Source of the DNA: Gemmatimonadota bacterium
Lineage (GTDB): Bacteria > Gemmatimonadota > Gemmatimonadetes > Longimicrobiales > Gaopeijiaceae
Reading direction: 5' to 3'
Length of the DNA: 64,000 bases
NCBI GenBank assembly: GCA_022823225.1
Contig: JAJDXM010000035.1
Coordinates: 1 to 64,000 of the forward strand
A program made the position numbers and the translations under genes. How positions within the stretch are numbered: the stretch's first letter is position 1; the number at the start of each line of letters is the position of its first letter. Below are positions 20,798 to 43,103 of this stretch, piece after piece. The notes below the pieces were generated by a model that saw only the letters and a list, made by a program, of their open reading frames with translations, did no database searches and had not been told where the DNA came from.

Positions 20798-21976
20798 TTG
20801 CCCGAGGCGCCGAAGGGAAACACAGGTTCCTCCGCACGCCGCAGCCGCTTCGACACCCTTTGCGTGCACGCCGGCCAGTCGCCCGAGGCGGTGACCGGCG
20901 CGATCACGACACCCGTCTTCCAGACCTCCACCTATGTGCAGGAAGGGATCGGGCGGCACAGGGGCTACGAATACGCGCGCCTCCAGAATCCCACTCGCGA
21001 GGCGTCCGAGGCGAACATCGCGGCGCTGGAGGGCGGCGGCCACGGGATCGCCTTTCCGAGCGGGCTCGCGGCCATCGAGTGCGTCGCGAAAACGGTGGCG
21101 GCCGGCGGCCACATCGTCAGCGAGGAGAACACCTACGGCGGGACCACGCGGATGTTCACCTCCGTCCTGGACCGCCTGGGAATCGAAGTCACGCTGGTGG
21201 ACACACGCGACCTGGCGGCTCTCGAGGCCGCGATCCGTCCCGACACCCGCCTGATCCACCTCGAGACCCCGTCGAATCCCCTCATGCGGATCGCCGACAT
21301 CGAGGCGGCCGCCGCGGTCGCGCGCGCTGCAGGGGCTCGCCTGTGCGTGGACAGCACCTTCGCGTCGCCGTGCAACCAGCAGCCGCTCGCGCTCGGCGCC
21401 GATGTGGTCATGCACTCCACCACCAAATACATCGCGGGACACTCGGACGTGCTCGGCGGAATATTGGTGGTCCGCGACGAGGCGCTCGCCGAGGAACTCC
21501 ATTTCGTACGCAAGTCAACGGGTCCGGTCCCCGGCCCGATGGACTCCTGGCTGACGCTCCGGGGGACCAGGACGCTCCACCTCCGGATGGCGCGCCACAA
21601 CCGAAACGGCACGCTCCTGGCGGAATACCTGCAAACCCATCCGGCCGTCCGCGCCGTCCACTACCCGGGGTTGCCCTCCCATCCCCAACACGACCTGGCG
21701 TGCCAGCAGATGACCGGGTTCTCCGGCATGCTCTCCGCCGAACTCTTGCCGGAAGACGCCAGGAGAATGGTCGAGCGGACGCGTCTCTTCCGTCTGGCCG
21801 AGAGCCTCGGAGGCGTGGAATCGATGCTCAGCGTTCCGGCGTTCATGACCCATGCCTCGGTTCCGGAGCCGCTGCGTCTCCGCCTGGGGATCACGAACGG
21901 GCTCGTCCGGTTCTCGGCCGGTATCGAAGACGGCCGCGACCTCGTCGAAGATCTTGAGCAAGCCCTTCGTACCTGA
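20798..21976 (+). CDS. Cystathionine gamma-synthase/lyase family PLP enzyme
   Basis: This is a 392-residue Cys/Met-metabolism PLP enzyme. TTG 20798 has AAGGA seven bases upstream. The frame ahead is poor. The core has FDTLCVHAGQ, the YARLQNPTR substrate region, the DSTFASPCNQQP aspartate region and the PLP lysine K210 in HSTTKYIAGHSDVLGG, ending with the phosphate/carboxylate region. Family members catalyse transsulfuration or gamma-elimination, and sequence alone does not separate MetB from cystathionine gamma-lyase. No sulfur-metabolism neighbours are present, so I leave the symbol empty. Confidence 0.85.
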   Translation: MPEAPKGNTGSSARRSRFDTLCVHAGQSPEAVTGAITTPVFQTSTYVQEGIGRHRGYEYARLQNPTREASEANIAALEGGGHGIAFPSGLAAIECVAKTVAAGGHIVSEENTYGGTTRMFTSVLDRLGIEVTLVDTRDLAALEAAIRPDTRLIHLETPSNPLMRIADIEAAAAVARAAGARLCVDSTFASPCNQQPLALGADVVMHSTTKYIAGHSDVLGGILVVRDEALAEELHFVRKSTGPVPGPMDSWLTLRGTRTLHLRMARHNRNGTLLAEYLQTHPAVRAVHYPGLPSHPQHDLACQQMTGFSGMLSAELLPEDARRMVERTRLFRLAESLGGVESMLSVPAFMTHASVPEPLRLRLGITNGLVRFSAGIEDGRDLVEDLEQALRT

Positions 21977-37292: not shown

Positions 37293-38501
37293 TCAGCCGG
37301 TGGCCTGCTCCACGGCCCACCGGCCCGGTGAGGTGGCCGCCGCATGGCGGAAGTCGGCCTTGAGGTCCTCCAGATCCTCCAGTCCGACCGAGATCCGCAC
37401 GAAGCCGTCGGGGATCCCCAGGGCTTCGCGCTCCTCGGAAGTCAGGTCGACATGGGATGTGTGGCGCGGCTGCGACACCAGCGTCTCGACGCCGCCGAGG
37501 GAGGGCGCGGGCACGGCCAGGCGAAGCCGGGAGCAAAAGCGGTCGGCAGCCTCCCCGCCTCCGTTCAGCACGATGGACACCATCCCGCCGCAGCCGCGCA
37601 GCATCCGGACGGCCCGCTCGTGGTCGGGGTGGCTCGGCAGGCCCGGGTAGAGAACCTGGCGCACCCCCTCGACACCGGTGAACCACTCGGCCAGGGCGTG
37701 CGCGCTGCGGTTGTGGCGCTCCATGCGTGCAGGCAGTGTGCGCATGCCCCGCTCGAGCAGCCACGCTGCCTGGGGATCGATCGACCCCCCGTACAACTTC
37801 ATCATCTTCGCGACCCCCTCGATCAGCGGCCGGCTCCCCGCGACCACCCCCGCGATCAGGTCGGAGTGGCCGCCGAGGTACTTGGTGGCCGAGTGGATGA
37901 CCGCGTCGACGCCGTGCTCGGCGGCGCGAATGTTCACCGGGGTGGCGAAGGTCATGTCGGCCGCGAGAATGGCGCCCGCCGACCGTGCGGCGCGGCGCGC
38001 CGGCCCGATGTCGAAGACCCGCAACGTCGGGTTCGTGGGAAGCTCGATCAGGACGACCCGCGTGCGTGGAGTCAGCGCCGCACCCCACGCGGCGGGGTCG
38101 CCCGGATCGACGAAGGTGGTGGTGATCCCGCGTCGGGGCAGCTCGTGGGCGAGCAGCGCGTGGGTGGCGCCGTAGAGGTGCCGGCTCGCCACGACATGGT
38201 CGCCTGCGTCGGCCGCCGCGAGGATCGTCGAGGAGATCGCGGCCATCCCGCTCGCGAGCGCGAGACCGGCTTCCGTGCCCTCCAGCGCCGCGACCTTTGC
38301 GGCCACGGAGATCTGGTTGGGGTTGTTGCCGTACCGGCTGTACCGCAGGTCGACACCGTCCGAGGGACCCGACCAGTAAAAGGTGGAACTCCGCACGATC
38401 GGTTGCACGACCGGCTGGCCGGGACGGGGGGCGGGGCAGCCCGCATGCACTGCGCTGGTCGCCGTCCCGGGTCGGTCCTTCCCGCTTGCTCCTGATTTCA
38501 T
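37293..38501 (-). CDS. Cys/Met-metabolism PLP enzyme (second copy)
   Basis: This is a 402-residue transsulfuration-family PLP enzyme, distinct from the one at 20798. ATG 38501 has GGGAGG five bases upstream and an ATGA overlap with the DUF4325 gene. The core has YSRYGNNPNQ, ASRHLYGATHALLAH, LIELPTNPTLRVFDI and PLP lysine K207 in SATKYLGGHSDL, and ends with ISVGLEDLEDLKADF. It could be a cystathionine gamma-synthase, -lyase or methionine gamma-lyase type. Coupling to two regulatory-type genes upstream is unusual. Confidence 0.85.
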   Translation of the reverse strand: MKSGASGKDRPGTATSAVHAGCPAPRPGQPVVQPIVRSSTFYWSGPSDGVDLRYSRYGNNPNQISVAAKVAALEGTEAGLALASGMAAISSTILAAADAGDHVVASRHLYGATHALLAHELPRRGITTTFVDPGDPAAWGAALTPRTRVVLIELPTNPTLRVFDIGPARRAARSAGAILAADMTFATPVNIRAAEHGVDAVIHSATKYLGGHSDLIAGVVAGSRPLIEGVAKMMKLYGGSIDPQAAWLLERGMRTLPARMERHNRSAHALAEWFTGVEGVRQVLYPGLPSHPDHERAVRMLRGCGGMVSIVLNGGGEAADRFCSRLRLAVPAPSLGGVETLVSQPRHTSHVDLTSEEREALGIPDGFVRISVGLEDLEDLKADFRHAAATSPGRWAVEQATG

Positions 38502-39100
38502 CCTGCCTCCCTGTCCATTCGCTGTCCTGAGGTGCGAGCCAGTGCGCTGAGTGCCGACGCGCCACCGCCGCTGCCGCACCAGGCGAGCCTTCGCGCGGCC
38601 AATCCGCGTACCACCGGTTCACTTCGCTCGCCGAATTCCCTGCTGAAATCGTCGGGGTCAATCCGCTTTCGCCGTTCCAGGGTCCACCAGGCCACCCGTT
38701 CCTCCGCGGAAGTCGGCCCCACGAGCTCGTACCCCTCGCCGAGGTCGCATACGGCCGCCAGCCCATGCCTCCCCAGGACTTCCTCCACGGCATGGCGGTG
38801 CGCATCGCCGACCGCGCGAAAGAGAAAGAAGGCGTCGCGCGGCCGGTCGTTGCGTATGTAGCGCGCGAGGAGCTTTGCGACGACTTCGTCGGCGCAGCTG
38901 AAGTCCAGGATCCTGACACCGGTGAAGTCCAGGAGGGACACGAAGGGGGACCGGCCGACTCCCGCGATCCGCACTTCGATCGCTTCCCTGACGGCGCGTC
39001 CGGTGGGGCGCGTGACCAGATCGGGACGGGCTGCGGCGATCGTATCGTTCAGGATTGCCCCTACATCGATCCTGATTGCGTGGGGAAAGCGTGCGTTCAT
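38498..39100 (-). CDS. DUF4325-like STAS-related protein
   Basis: This is a 200-residue protein. The start ATG 39100 overlaps the HATPase stop by 4 bases. The core VSLLDFTGVRILDFSCADEV (residues 54-73) has the strand-helix pattern of STAS-like DUF4325 domains, which often follow histidine-kinase-like ATPases. The C-terminal half holds FFLFRAVGDAHRHAVEEVLGRHG and a basic WWTLERRKRIDPDDF helix. It may act as the target that the preceding HATPase phosphorylates or binds. There is no signal peptide. The family call is tentative. Confidence 0.6.
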   Translation of the reverse strand: MNARFPHAIRIDVGAILNDTIAAARPDLVTRPTGRAVREAIEVRIAGVGRSPFVSLLDFTGVRILDFSCADEVVAKLLARYIRNDRPRDAFFLFRAVGDAHRHAVEEVLGRHGLAAVCDLGEGYELVGPTSAEERVAWWTLERRKRIDPDDFSREFGERSEPVVRGLAARRLAWCGSGGGASALSALARTSGQRMDREAG

Positions 39101-39978
39101 GCGAGTCGCTCGGCCAGAACGATGTTGATCTGGGCCCCGGGGAAGGGTGTCAGCCCCTCTTCCAGCGGGGGCCGGCTGCTCCAGTCCGGATTGTCGGCGA
39201 TCCGGGCCGTGCCGCTGCGAATGGAGAGCATTCCGTTCCAGCGCCCGATCTGCTTGCGGATCTGCTGGATCCCCTGCCCCCTTCCCGTGTCGGGGAAACG
39301 GGTCAGTCCGAGCAGGAACGCCGCTTCCAGCGCGGTCGCGTCCCCCCACCGGTCACCGAAACGCGCCGCGTGTTCATCCTGCAGCGAGGCGCGGAATCCA
39401 CGGCCGAGATCGGAAACCGCGATCACGGCGACGTGCCGTCCGAGCCTCCGTTTCCAGTCGTACGCCTGGGCGGCCACCCATCCGGGTGCGTCGGCGTGCT
39501 CGATGATGTTCTGGCAAACCTCCGACAGGACGACACAGAACTGGACCACCGACGAGACCGGGTAGCGCAGCGTCCTTGACAGAATCGCGCCCGCCCTCGA
39601 TTGCACCCGGTCCACCACATCGTGGACATCCGCGTTGGTGGCGACCGAGGTGATCTCGAGGAGCACGTCGGAGGCGGCGCGCCGGCGGCGACGGATGCGT
39701 CCGGCAACGTCGAAGACCTCCGCGGCGGCCTGAAAGAAGCCCATTCGGTCCATGTAACTGAGGACCTCGGGATGTTCGGGCAGGGAGATCCTGGGCTGCG
39801 TACCCCGTCCGGCCAACGCCTTCCCGGCGGCGAGAAGGAGGAGCATGCCGTTGGGATCGATCCACTGCAGCCGGCGGACATCGAACAGGACAGGCCCCCG
39901 GCCGGTGGCGCCGATCTGCTCGTACACCGTCTCCACACTCCGGTAGTCGAGCGACTTCGGCACCTCGACGACGCGCAT
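39097..39978 (-). CDS. STAS-HATPase fusion (anti-sigma/kinase-like regulator)
   Basis: This is a 293-residue cytoplasmic protein. Residues about 1-95 are a STAS-like fold (GPVLFDVRRLQWIDPNGMLLLL). Residues about 125-290 are a GHKL ATPase of the anti-sigma kinase type: N-box LSEVCQNIIEHAD (E153, N157, H161), G1 SDLGRGF (190-195) and G2 GRGQGIQQI (232-240). No phosphoacceptor His-box or membrane segment is seen. In the SpoIIAB/RsbW group, kinase and STAS antagonist are separate; here they are on one chain and a second STAS-like protein follows with a 4-base overlap. That suggests a partner-switching module. Its output is unknown. Confidence 0.7.
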   Translation of the reverse strand: MRVVEVPKSLDYRSVETVYEQIGATGRGPVLFDVRRLQWIDPNGMLLLLAAGKALAGRGTQPRISLPEHPEVLSYMDRMGFFQAAAEVFDVAGRIRRRRRAASDVLLEITSVATNADVHDVVDRVQSRAGAILSRTLRYPVSSVVQFCVVLSEVCQNIIEHADAPGWVAAQAYDWKRRLGRHVAVIAVSDLGRGFRASLQDEHAARFGDRWGDATALEAAFLLGLTRFPDTGRGQGIQQIRKQIGRWNGMLSIRSGTARIADNPDWSSRPPLEEGLTPFPGAQINIVLAERLA

Positions 39979-40106
39979 CTCAGGCCCCTTCCGATTTCAT
40001 GGCCGGCAACGCGGAGCGTATGGCACGGGTGACGTCTTCATCCGCAGGGAAGATAACGGGGCGGGCCGCGGCCGCGGTGCCATGACGCGACGGTGCTTCG
40101 GGACTG

Positions 40107-41078
40107 CTAACCATGGATCGCCCGCTTGAGGACCCCGGCCGCGCCGATCATCCCGGCCGTGGCGGGAAACCGCGCAGCCACGATGCGGCAGGCTTCCCAT
40201 GCCGGCCTGAAGGTCCGCCGGCGAGCTTCCGCGCGGAGGGGCCCGAAAAGCACCTCCCCCGCCCCGGCCAATCCTCCGCCCAGCACGATAATCTCCGGGT
40301 TGAAGAGGTGCACCAGGTTCGCCACCGCAACCGCGAGGATCCGCGCCGCCTCCTCTACCACGCGCATGGCGTAGGCGTCGCCGGCCGCGGCGGCTCCGCA
40401 GACGGCCTCGGCCGTGACCGGACCGGGGCCTTCCCGCACGAGCGTGGCAAGCGACGAGTTCGGGGCAGAGTCGATTCCCTCGGCCGCCCGGGCCGCGAGC
40501 GCCGGTCCGGAGGCGTAGGCCTCGACGCATCCGCGCCCCCCGCAGGAGCAGGTCCGGCCCGGATGCCGTACCGACATGTGCCCGACTTCGCCCGCCGAGT
40601 CGGAAGCCCCGTGGTAGATCTCGCCGCCGAGCACGATTCCGCCCCCGATGCCGGTGCCGAGCGTGAGGCCGATCAGTCGCTGCGTGCCCCGCCCCGCACC
40701 CATCCACCACTCGCCGTAGGCCGCGCAGTTGGCGTCGTTGTCCAGTGCCACCGGGAGGCCCGTTCGCCGCGCGACCATGTCCCGGAGGGGAAGGTCGCGC
40801 CAGCCGAGGTTGGGAGCCTCGATCACGATCCCCCGGGCGCGGTCCAGTGGTCCCGGAACGCCGATCCCGATGCCGGCCGCCTCCTCCCCCAGACTCTCCA
40901 TGGAGTCGCGGACCATCCCGACGACGCGTCGAACCATCTGCGGCGCCCCCTCCTCGGGCCGGCTCGGGCCGGTGACGACCGCGACCGGCTCGCCGCCGGC
41001 GAACGGGACCATGCCCGCGCGCAGGCTCGTGCCACCGATGTCCACCCCGACGATCCAGCGCGGCGGCCCGGGGGTCAC
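40107..41078 (-). CDS. ROK-family sugar kinase (glucokinase-like)
   Basis: This is a 323-residue ROK kinase. The ATP phosphate loop is [14 protein letters not shown], the substrate region [14 protein letters not shown], then [12 protein letters not shown] and the zinc site [15 protein letters not shown]. All key residues are present. GTG 41078 overlaps the lepA stop (GTGA). ROK members phosphorylate glucose, N-acetylglucosamine or N-acetylmannosamine, or act as repressors. There is no DNA-binding domain, so this is a kinase, likely glucokinase. Confidence 0.88.
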
Positions 41079-42883
41079 GACCGGGTATCGTCGAGTTGCA
41101 GGACCGCCATGAACGCCTCCTGCGGGATCTCCACGGATCCAACCTGCTTCATCCGCTTCTTCCCCTCCTTCTGGCGTTCCAGAAGCTTGCGCTTGCGGGT
41201 GATGTCGCCGCCGTAACACTTCGCCGTCACGTTCTTGCGCACGGCCTTCACCGTCTGGCGTGCGATCACCTGGTTGCCGATGGCGGCCTGCAGCGCGACA
41301 TCGAACTGCTGCCGGGGGATCAGTTCCCTGAGCTTCGCCACCAGCGCCATGCCGTGCGGGTAGGCGTTGTCGCGATGCAGGATCACCGAGAAGGCGTCGA
41401 CGGGTTCGCGGTTGACCATCACGTCGAGCTTGACCAGATCGCCGGTGCGGTACTCGTGGAAATCGTAGTCCAGCGCGGCGTACCCGCGTGTTCCGCTCTT
41501 CAGGCGGCCGTAGAAGTCCAGGACGATCTCCGCCAGCGGAAGTTCGAAGTCCATCTCGACCCGGCGCGGATCGAGGTAGCTCATCCCCTTGAACACGCCC
41601 CGCCGCTCGTGACAGAGCTTCTGCACGTTGCCGATATACTCCGCCGGCACGACGATATGCGCCCGCACCAGCGGTTCCGCGACCGATTCCACCAGCGCCC
41701 GGTCCGGAAGGTCCGATGGGTTTTCGATCGAGATTGCACTTCCGTCGGACATCGCCACCCTGTACTTCACATTGGGAACCGTTGTGATGAGCTTGACCCC
41801 GAACTCGCGGTCGAGGCGTTCCTGAACCACCTCCATGTGCAGGAGTCCCAGAAACCCGCAGCGGAAACCGAACCCCAGCGCCCTGGAAGTCTCGGACTCG
41901 AAGTGGAGGGAGGCGTCGTTGAGACGCAGGCGGTGCAGCGCGTCGCGGAGTTCCTCGTAGCCGTCCGTATCGGTGGGATAGAGCCCCGCGAACACCATCG
42001 GCTTCGCGTCCTTGTACCCGGGGAGCAGTTCCCCGGCGCGGTGCGAAGCGTCCAGCACGGTATCGCCCGCGCGGGTGTCGGATACGGCCTTGATCGCGGC
42101 GACCAGATACCCCACGTCTCCGGGTCCGAGCGCGGGGGCCGGCACTCGCCCGAGCCGCATGTACCCGACCTCCGTCACGTCGTAGCTGGACTCGACGGCC
42201 CCGAAGGTGATCCTCATCCCCGCCCGCAGCGTTCCGTCGACGACCCGCACGGAGGGCACCGCACCGAGATACCGGTCGTAGTAGGAGTCGAAGATCAGCG
42301 CCCTCAGGGGCGCGCCGGGGTCGCCGGCCGGTGCCGGGACGCGCTGGACCACGGCCTCGAGCACCCCATCCACTCCCGTCCCCTCCTTTGCGCTCACCTC
42401 CAGCACCGTGCCGGGATCCACCCCCATGAGTTCGGCGATCTCTTCCCGCCGCCGGCCGGGCTCGGCTCCCGGCAGGTCGATCTTGTTCAGCACCGGGATG
42501 ATCTCGAGGTTCGCGTCGAGCGCGAGGAAGAGGTTGGAGAGCGTCTGCGCCTGCACCCCCTGGGTCGCATCGACCACGAGGATCGCGCCCTCGCACGCGG
42601 CCAGCGACCGGGAAACCTCGTAGGTGAAATCGACGTGCCCCGGCGTGTCGATCAGGTTGAGCTGGTAGTCGCGGCAGTCCCCGGCCCGGTAGGACATGCG
42701 CACCGCGTGGAGCTTGATGGTGATTCCCCGCTCGCGTTCGAGTTCATTGGAATCAAGGACCTGGTCGCGCATCTGACGGCTGTCCAGGGTGGCGGTCGAC
42801 TCGATGAGCCGGTCCGCCAGAGTGGACTTGCCGTGATCGATGTGCGCGATGATGCAGAAATTGCGAATCAGGTCGGTCCGCAC
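41075..42883 (-). CDS. lepA: Elongation factor 4 (LepA)
   Basis: This is a 602-residue ribosome-associated GTPase. GTG 42883 ([20 protein letters not shown]) gives the normal length. A longer frame begins 26 codons earlier. The G-domain motifs are [17 protein letters not shown] and NKIDLPGA. The hallmark C-terminal end includes the [22 protein letters not shown] segment. LepA acts in translation and ribosome assembly. It overlaps the ROK gene downstream. Confidence 0.96.
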
Positions 42884-43103
42884 TTGGAATGCAACCGGGA
42901 TCTGGGGTGAAGGGAGTGCGGGGCGCGCCACCGCCCGGCCATCCCGGAGGTGGTAAGGCAAGGTAACCGGGCCGATTTTGCCGGGTCAATCGGAAGCGGG
43001 CAAAGAGGGGAATCGTGATGGATAAATGTTGCGTGCGCACATCCTCTCCACCGATATTGCATGATCGAAAGACCTGTTCCCGCTCGGTACGCGAGGTGTC
43101 AAG

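Follow-up and report, generated by a model that had tools for sequence, protein, structure and literature searches.

The locus described here raises the question of what is controlled by a kinase and its putative substrate when both are encoded in one overlapping array with a metabolic enzyme. The array lies on the minus strand of the window, by which we mean the whole stretch of 64,000 nucleotides that was analysed, taken from a Gemmatimonadota genome of 4.19 Mb. It consists of gene A (39097-39978, 293 aa), coding for a STAS-GHKL kinase similar to CapK and VapK, gene B (38498-39100, 200 aa), coding for a CapS-like protein with a STAS-like and a winged-helix part, and a gene for a PLP enzyme of the Cys/Met metabolism family PF01053 (37293-38501, 402 aa). 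The two successive four-base overlaps described in an earlier note on this DNA were verified at 39097-39100 (A/B) and 38498-38501 (B/PLP), each of them reading ATGA. The three are real genes and not chance open reading frames, since A matches STAS and HATPase models, although weakly, the PLP protein matches PF01053 with 387.6 bits against a cut-off of 27, and 353 of 370 Gemmatimonadota genomes carry B.

The products of genes A and B

The description of A as a STAS-kinase fusion was confirmed. Taken alone, A gave weak Pfam matches to STAS_2 and HATPase_c, the latter being matched also by 29 of 30 homologues, and its predicted model (pLDDT 89.9) consists of a STAS domain followed by a SpoIIAB-like kinase. 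The STAS domain (residues 1-94; 39697-39978, minus strand), assigned by structure matches and a motif tally, resembles anti-anti-sigma STAS domains with a best Z of 11.6, as for TM1442. The GHKL kinase domain (residues 104-292; 39103-39669, minus strand) was assigned by structure match and alignment, and the model of A matches SpoIIAB with a Z of 14.1 over 133 residues at 2.6 Å, compared to about 9.8 for histidine kinases. Residues E153, N157, H161, D190, G192, G194, R233, G234, G236 and R254 are invariant in 160 A proteins. Where SpoIIAA has Asp-Ser-Ser-Gly, the STAS domain of A has Asp-Pro-Asn-Gly and thus lacks a phosphoacceptor at that site. According to both alignment and model, A begins directly with a STAS strand, with no N-terminal HTH. 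The counterpart of CapK W68, paired with A position 9 by extending the profile alignment by one residue, is Ser or Thr in 131 of 160 proteins, and no aromatic residue is found among the eight commonest at this position. The conserved basic residues R178 and R181 fall roughly at the place of CapK K237/K239 (PMC13373217). As a side observation, the PADLOC model of DrmA (PDLC02567, 1750 positions) matched A with an E value of 4.2e-13, within the first 250 positions of the model, which may indicate an N-terminal CapK-like kinase domain in some DISARM DrmA proteins.

Gene B by itself found no match in Pfam, NCBIfam or PADLOC, and Foldseek returned nothing below E 0.001. Its predicted model (pLDDT 92.4) shows a STAS fold followed by a winged helix. 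The STAS relation comes from a second look with VIA-align at a middling best Z of 7.8, where the absence of the CapS structure 9Z71 is uninformative; searched against the PDB, the B profile gave a weak match to this same structure (9z71, E 1.3). The predicted winged helix, which the earlier note did not mention, spans residues 132-183 (38552-38707, minus strand) and was delimited by DSSP of the model, by comparison with 5n35 (Z 4.4, rmsd 1.7 Å over 55 residues) and by profile matches of ArsR, MarR, TrmB and AsnC type among the B homologues. B had also been called DUF4325-like, which is fair as a description: the S-x-x-D-E motif is similar, and a Janibacter CapS-like protein is annotated as DUF4325. 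The cut-off of the Pfam model (PF14213), however, is not reached, as B of the window does not match it and 4 of 30 B proteins match it weakly, with a best E of 0.15, so that membership is not established.

The candidate phosphoacceptor of B is Ser68 (codon 38897-38899, minus strand) in the motif D-F-S-C-A-D-E, which aligns with the phosphosite Ser54 of CapS. Position 68 is Ser in 160 of 161 B proteins, the sole exception being an Ala (DYACADE) at locus L111 of genome G374, and T30, R31, T33, G34, R38, D66, C69, A70, D71, E72 and G128 are invariant in all 161. Ser68 stands two residues after the Asp (D66-F67-S68), as in CapS, whereas in SpoIIAA the Ser follows the Asp directly (D57-S58) and B has Phe or Tyr at the position of SpoIIAA Ser58; a phosphoacceptor directly after the STAS-loop Asp is present in neither B nor A (D-P-N-G). 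The idea that Ser68 lies one residue off the phosphosite was discarded because CapS S54 shares its register in the alignment. The constancy of the kinase residues (160 of 160) and of the Ser at the CapS phosphosite position (160 of 161) is in line with the earlier view that A and B resemble the kinase and substrate of a partner switch to which no sigma factor is attached.

Relation to CapK/CapS and VapK/VapS

CapK (HTH-STAS-GHKL) and CapS (STAS-winged helix) form a pair that regulates anti-phage defence (EMBO J 2026, PMC13373217). In this system ssDNA activates CapK, CapS becomes phosphorylated at Ser54, as determined experimentally, and as a result the CapS dimer is broken and its DNA released; deletion of the CapK HTH has no effect, and an immune operon is adjacent in 348 of 443 known cases (PMC13373217). 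A toxin-antitoxin variant, VapK/VapS/VapC, has a kinase without HTH, and in the model proposed for it phosphorylation releases a protein partner (PMC13373217).

With hhalign, the A family matched a CapK family of six CapK-type proteins at 99.8% (E 5.4e-30) and the B family matched the CapS family at 97.9% (E 5.7e-13, residues 24-176), the CapS-family profile including a Nostoc protein that by itself scores 89.9% against B. A single CapK reached 96.8% against A; a single CapS matched B weakly (17.8%, E 0.0014), the relation of B being strong only when profile is compared with profile. As single-sequence controls, the RsbW-like kinase (10.6%) and the RsbV-like STAS protein (0.1%) of the window's own genome gave no match, the fair kinase comparison for the former being the 96.8% of the single CapK. 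Both groups are linked by an HTH-less pair from a Nostoc plasmid, with 99.6% for the kinase and 89.9% for the CapS-like protein. This pair lies on a conjugative plasmid of Nostoc linckia (L250, 2785-5560) together with a metallo-beta-lactamase-type protein that matches PADLOC RTasMBL. Further CapK/CapS-type pairs were found on plasmids of Citrobacter, Vibrio, Acinetobacter, Janibacter and Nostoc, and the operator sequence given in PMC13373217 led to a capKS locus in E. coli S43, where it precedes a multiubiquitin/ThiF operon. Phage records gave no CapK match.

A and B thus share with CapK and CapS the adjacency of a STAS-GHKL kinase gene and a STAS-winged-helix gene, the kinase residues, the position of the STAS Ser and profile homology over both proteins. 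On these sequence comparisons the two genes are better described as a CapK/CapS-type pair, in a variant form that seems new; the open-access full texts searched held no description of the pair in this phylum, although one may exist elsewhere.

From the common architecture and family, and from R178 and R181 standing roughly where CapK has K237/K239, it could be argued that the CapK/CapS mechanism operates in full, with ssDNA from damage activating A, phosphorylated B leaving the DNA and a damage-response regulon being derepressed. We consider this rather unlikely. The Trp68 that CapK needs for activation by ssDNA has no aromatic equivalent among the common residues of A, its position being mostly Ser or Thr. 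In B the positions of the CapS DNA contacts N145 and K151 are variable, with Asp or Glu most frequent in place of K151, and the mean charge of the recognition helix is near neutral or slightly negative, family f9 excepted, compared to +2 to +4 in CapS. The winged helix itself is eroded in one lineage: several loci of family f4 (L103-L105) lack its first helices and L102 also diverges, with the D-x-S-C-A-D-E motif kept, and about a third of the f4 genomes match the B model only to about residue 150. Unlike in capKS, an operator would not fit between the two genes in many genomes; as the array is tight and, in most genomes, the gap almost nil, autoregulation of the capKS style would be impossible there, and it is possible that a DNA target of B lies elsewhere. 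Finally, inspection of 81 neighbourhoods revealed no immune operon among the recurrent neighbours, and A-B is near-universal and vertically inherited in its class whereas capKS is an accessory locus.

The pair comes closer to VapK-VapS-VapC in having a kinase without HTH and a STAS substrate with a conserved Ser. It differs from it in the winged helix of B, where VapS has a short C-terminal tail, and in lacking in A an aromatic equivalent of the conserved Phe54 of VapK, which corresponds to CapK W68; no recurrent PIN-type or VapC neighbour was recognised by inspection of the 81 loci.

Distribution, neighbourhood and the PLP gene

Within the order, 137 of 146 genomes have B, and across the phylum a genome that has it nearly always gives a single match. 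Profile searches picked it up in 59 of the 61 f4 genomes and in all 26 of family f10; families f7, f8 and f11 gave no match. Of 22 genomes in which the first searches had not detected B, only two contained A and two others fragments of B. Conversely, A accompanies B at 160 of 161 loci, the exception (L162) having B at a contig edge. At 152 of 160 loci the distance between the two genes is no more than about 100 nt, and at the other eight, which include all six sampled f3 loci, it is 0.5-1.3 kb; where start sites were estimated, the genes overlap or are at most 2 nt apart in 46 of 60 loci. In five of the six f3 loci (L061-L063, L065, L066) the two are separated by a PPIase-like (peptidyl-prolyl isomerase-like) gene. 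A tree of the concatenated A and B proteins recovered all seven sampled families as clades, with low support for f4, and since it follows the families, inheritance looks vertical. From these data the A-B pair appears to be carried by almost all genomes of one bacterial class and to be passed on vertically. The best 80 matches listed in a contig scan were all from Gemmatimonadota, with none outside the phylum, the wider range of relatives being known here only from the plasmid and E. coli records.

The recurring gene order around the pair is LepA, a heptosyltransferase-like gene in some cases, ROK, PfkB, A, B and PLP, followed by an FtsE-like ABC gene and others in families f4 and f5 and by NifU and Mrp types in many others; apart from the profile-scanned genes, neighbours were named by sequence inspection. 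In the window, the conserved upstream neighbours are a ROK-family glucokinase-like gene (40107-41084, minus strand, start codon approximate) and LepA (EF4; 41075-42961, minus strand), the latter identified by sequence and synteny. PfkB, which most relatives have between ROK and A, is missing from the 128-bp gap between these two genes (39979-40106), as it is at loci L033 and L042. In family f5 a conserved gene of about 103 aa (e.g., L088, 7887-8211) lies between B and PLP and matches PF01568, the molybdopterin dinucleotide binding domain, with an E value of 2.4e-6. The alternative that this f5 gene cluster (18) downstream of B is merely another frame of B was rejected, since the gap sequence contains a real PF01568-like gene of that length.

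The earlier note had taken the PLP enzyme as the output of the module, with sulfur amino acid use as what it might sense or control. In favour of a direct control of this enzyme, or of a ROK/PfkB/PLP operon, are the four-base overlap of B and PLP in the window, the presence of PLP near A-B at 59 of 81 sampled loci, and the phylogeny of the enzyme: 58 syntenic PLP sequences from five families form one clade (support 0.91), apart from the paralogs of the window's genome and 14 other sequences, so that the linkage is old; one syntenic sequence, L104, falls outside the clade on a long branch. The search for the same triplet in other genomes nevertheless showed that A-B occurs with no nearby PLP gene at 22 of the 81 loci, an outcome that the earlier note itself had named as refuting the idea. 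By family, PLP is near the pair in 21 of 25 loci of f1, 2 of 6 of f2, 5 of 6 of f3, 12 of 14 of f4, 19 of 20 of f5, and in none of the four of f9 and the six of f10; f2 loci either lack it or have it at a distance of 3-5 kb, and in f5 the small gene intervenes. Overlap or abutment of B and PLP is uncommon (11 of 46 loci), compared to the four-base overlap of PfkB and A at 30 of 46. Nothing in the sequences suggests that sulfur amino acids are the signal or the target, and the PLP protein reached no NCBIfam equivalog cut-off among the 25 families shown. The window contains a second PF01053 gene with a stronger match (20852-21967, plus strand, 471.8 bits), and a third is located on contig C54 of the same genome. 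A metabolic output of this kind is very unlikely; as judged from the sampled loci, the PLP gene is a common, old but dispensable neighbour, one among several, and A-B is coupled to the upstream PfkB sugar kinase at least as often as to PLP.

A classical partner switch, with A as anti-sigma kinase and B as anti-anti-sigma factor of the SpoIIAB-SpoIIAA or RsbW-RsbV type, would agree with the SpoIIAB-like fold of A, the STAS fold of B and the three SpoIIE-type phosphatases of the genome, but is hardly plausible given that B carries an extra winged helix, that neither A nor B is matched by the canonical RsbW/RsbV-like pair of the genome and that no sigma factor gene was seen among the recurrent neighbours, a remote one being possible. 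A also differs from these systems in having STAS and kinase fused. The RsbW-like kinase and RsbV-like STAS protein (S-S-A-G motif) are encoded together with a SpoIIE-type phosphatase elsewhere in this genome (G000:C3, 49128-51321; L126, L255).

A proposed switch and its meaning

The reading that we favour, with a probability of about 0.7, is that A and B constitute a kinase-substrate switch of the CapK/CapS kind, in which A binds B and phosphorylates Ser68, altering what B can bind. A would be a STAS-GHKL Ser/Thr kinase of the HTH-less, VapK-like form, and phosphorylation of Ser68, which stands where the second STAS helix begins, would change the STAS-mediated self-association of B or its binding to a partner, so that B engages its target only while A is quiet, or conversely only while A is active. 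This target may be a protein or a DNA site that is read differently. SpoIIE-type phosphatases could reverse the switch. The pair is probably co-transcribed with the sugar-kinase genes, and often with the PLP enzyme, but its role in the class is probably a general, core one. Hardly any variation is seen in the kinase and phosphosite residues, whereas the part that reads DNA drifts, suggesting that the conserved function probably lies in the STAS switch; the lack of the CapS DNA-reading residues in the winged helix of B, and its erosion in one lineage, argue for the same.

The pair appears to be a defence-type switch that serves as a core regulator. Whether it is a core regulator of the whole class, either domesticated or ancestral, is in our estimate an even bet; in that case a new signal would replace ssDNA, a new and possibly protein target would replace the immune promoter, and either a remote regulon or the sugar kinase encoded upstream could be the output. 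That nearly every genome sampled from a class carries one vertically inherited copy of a CapK/CapS relative suggests that the kinase-STAS-winged-helix cassette is a broader type of signalling, and it raises the evolutionary question of whether defence borrowed a housekeeping switch or the reverse. For the Gemmatimonadota, whose regulatory biology is little known, the pair provides a core switch that can be tested.
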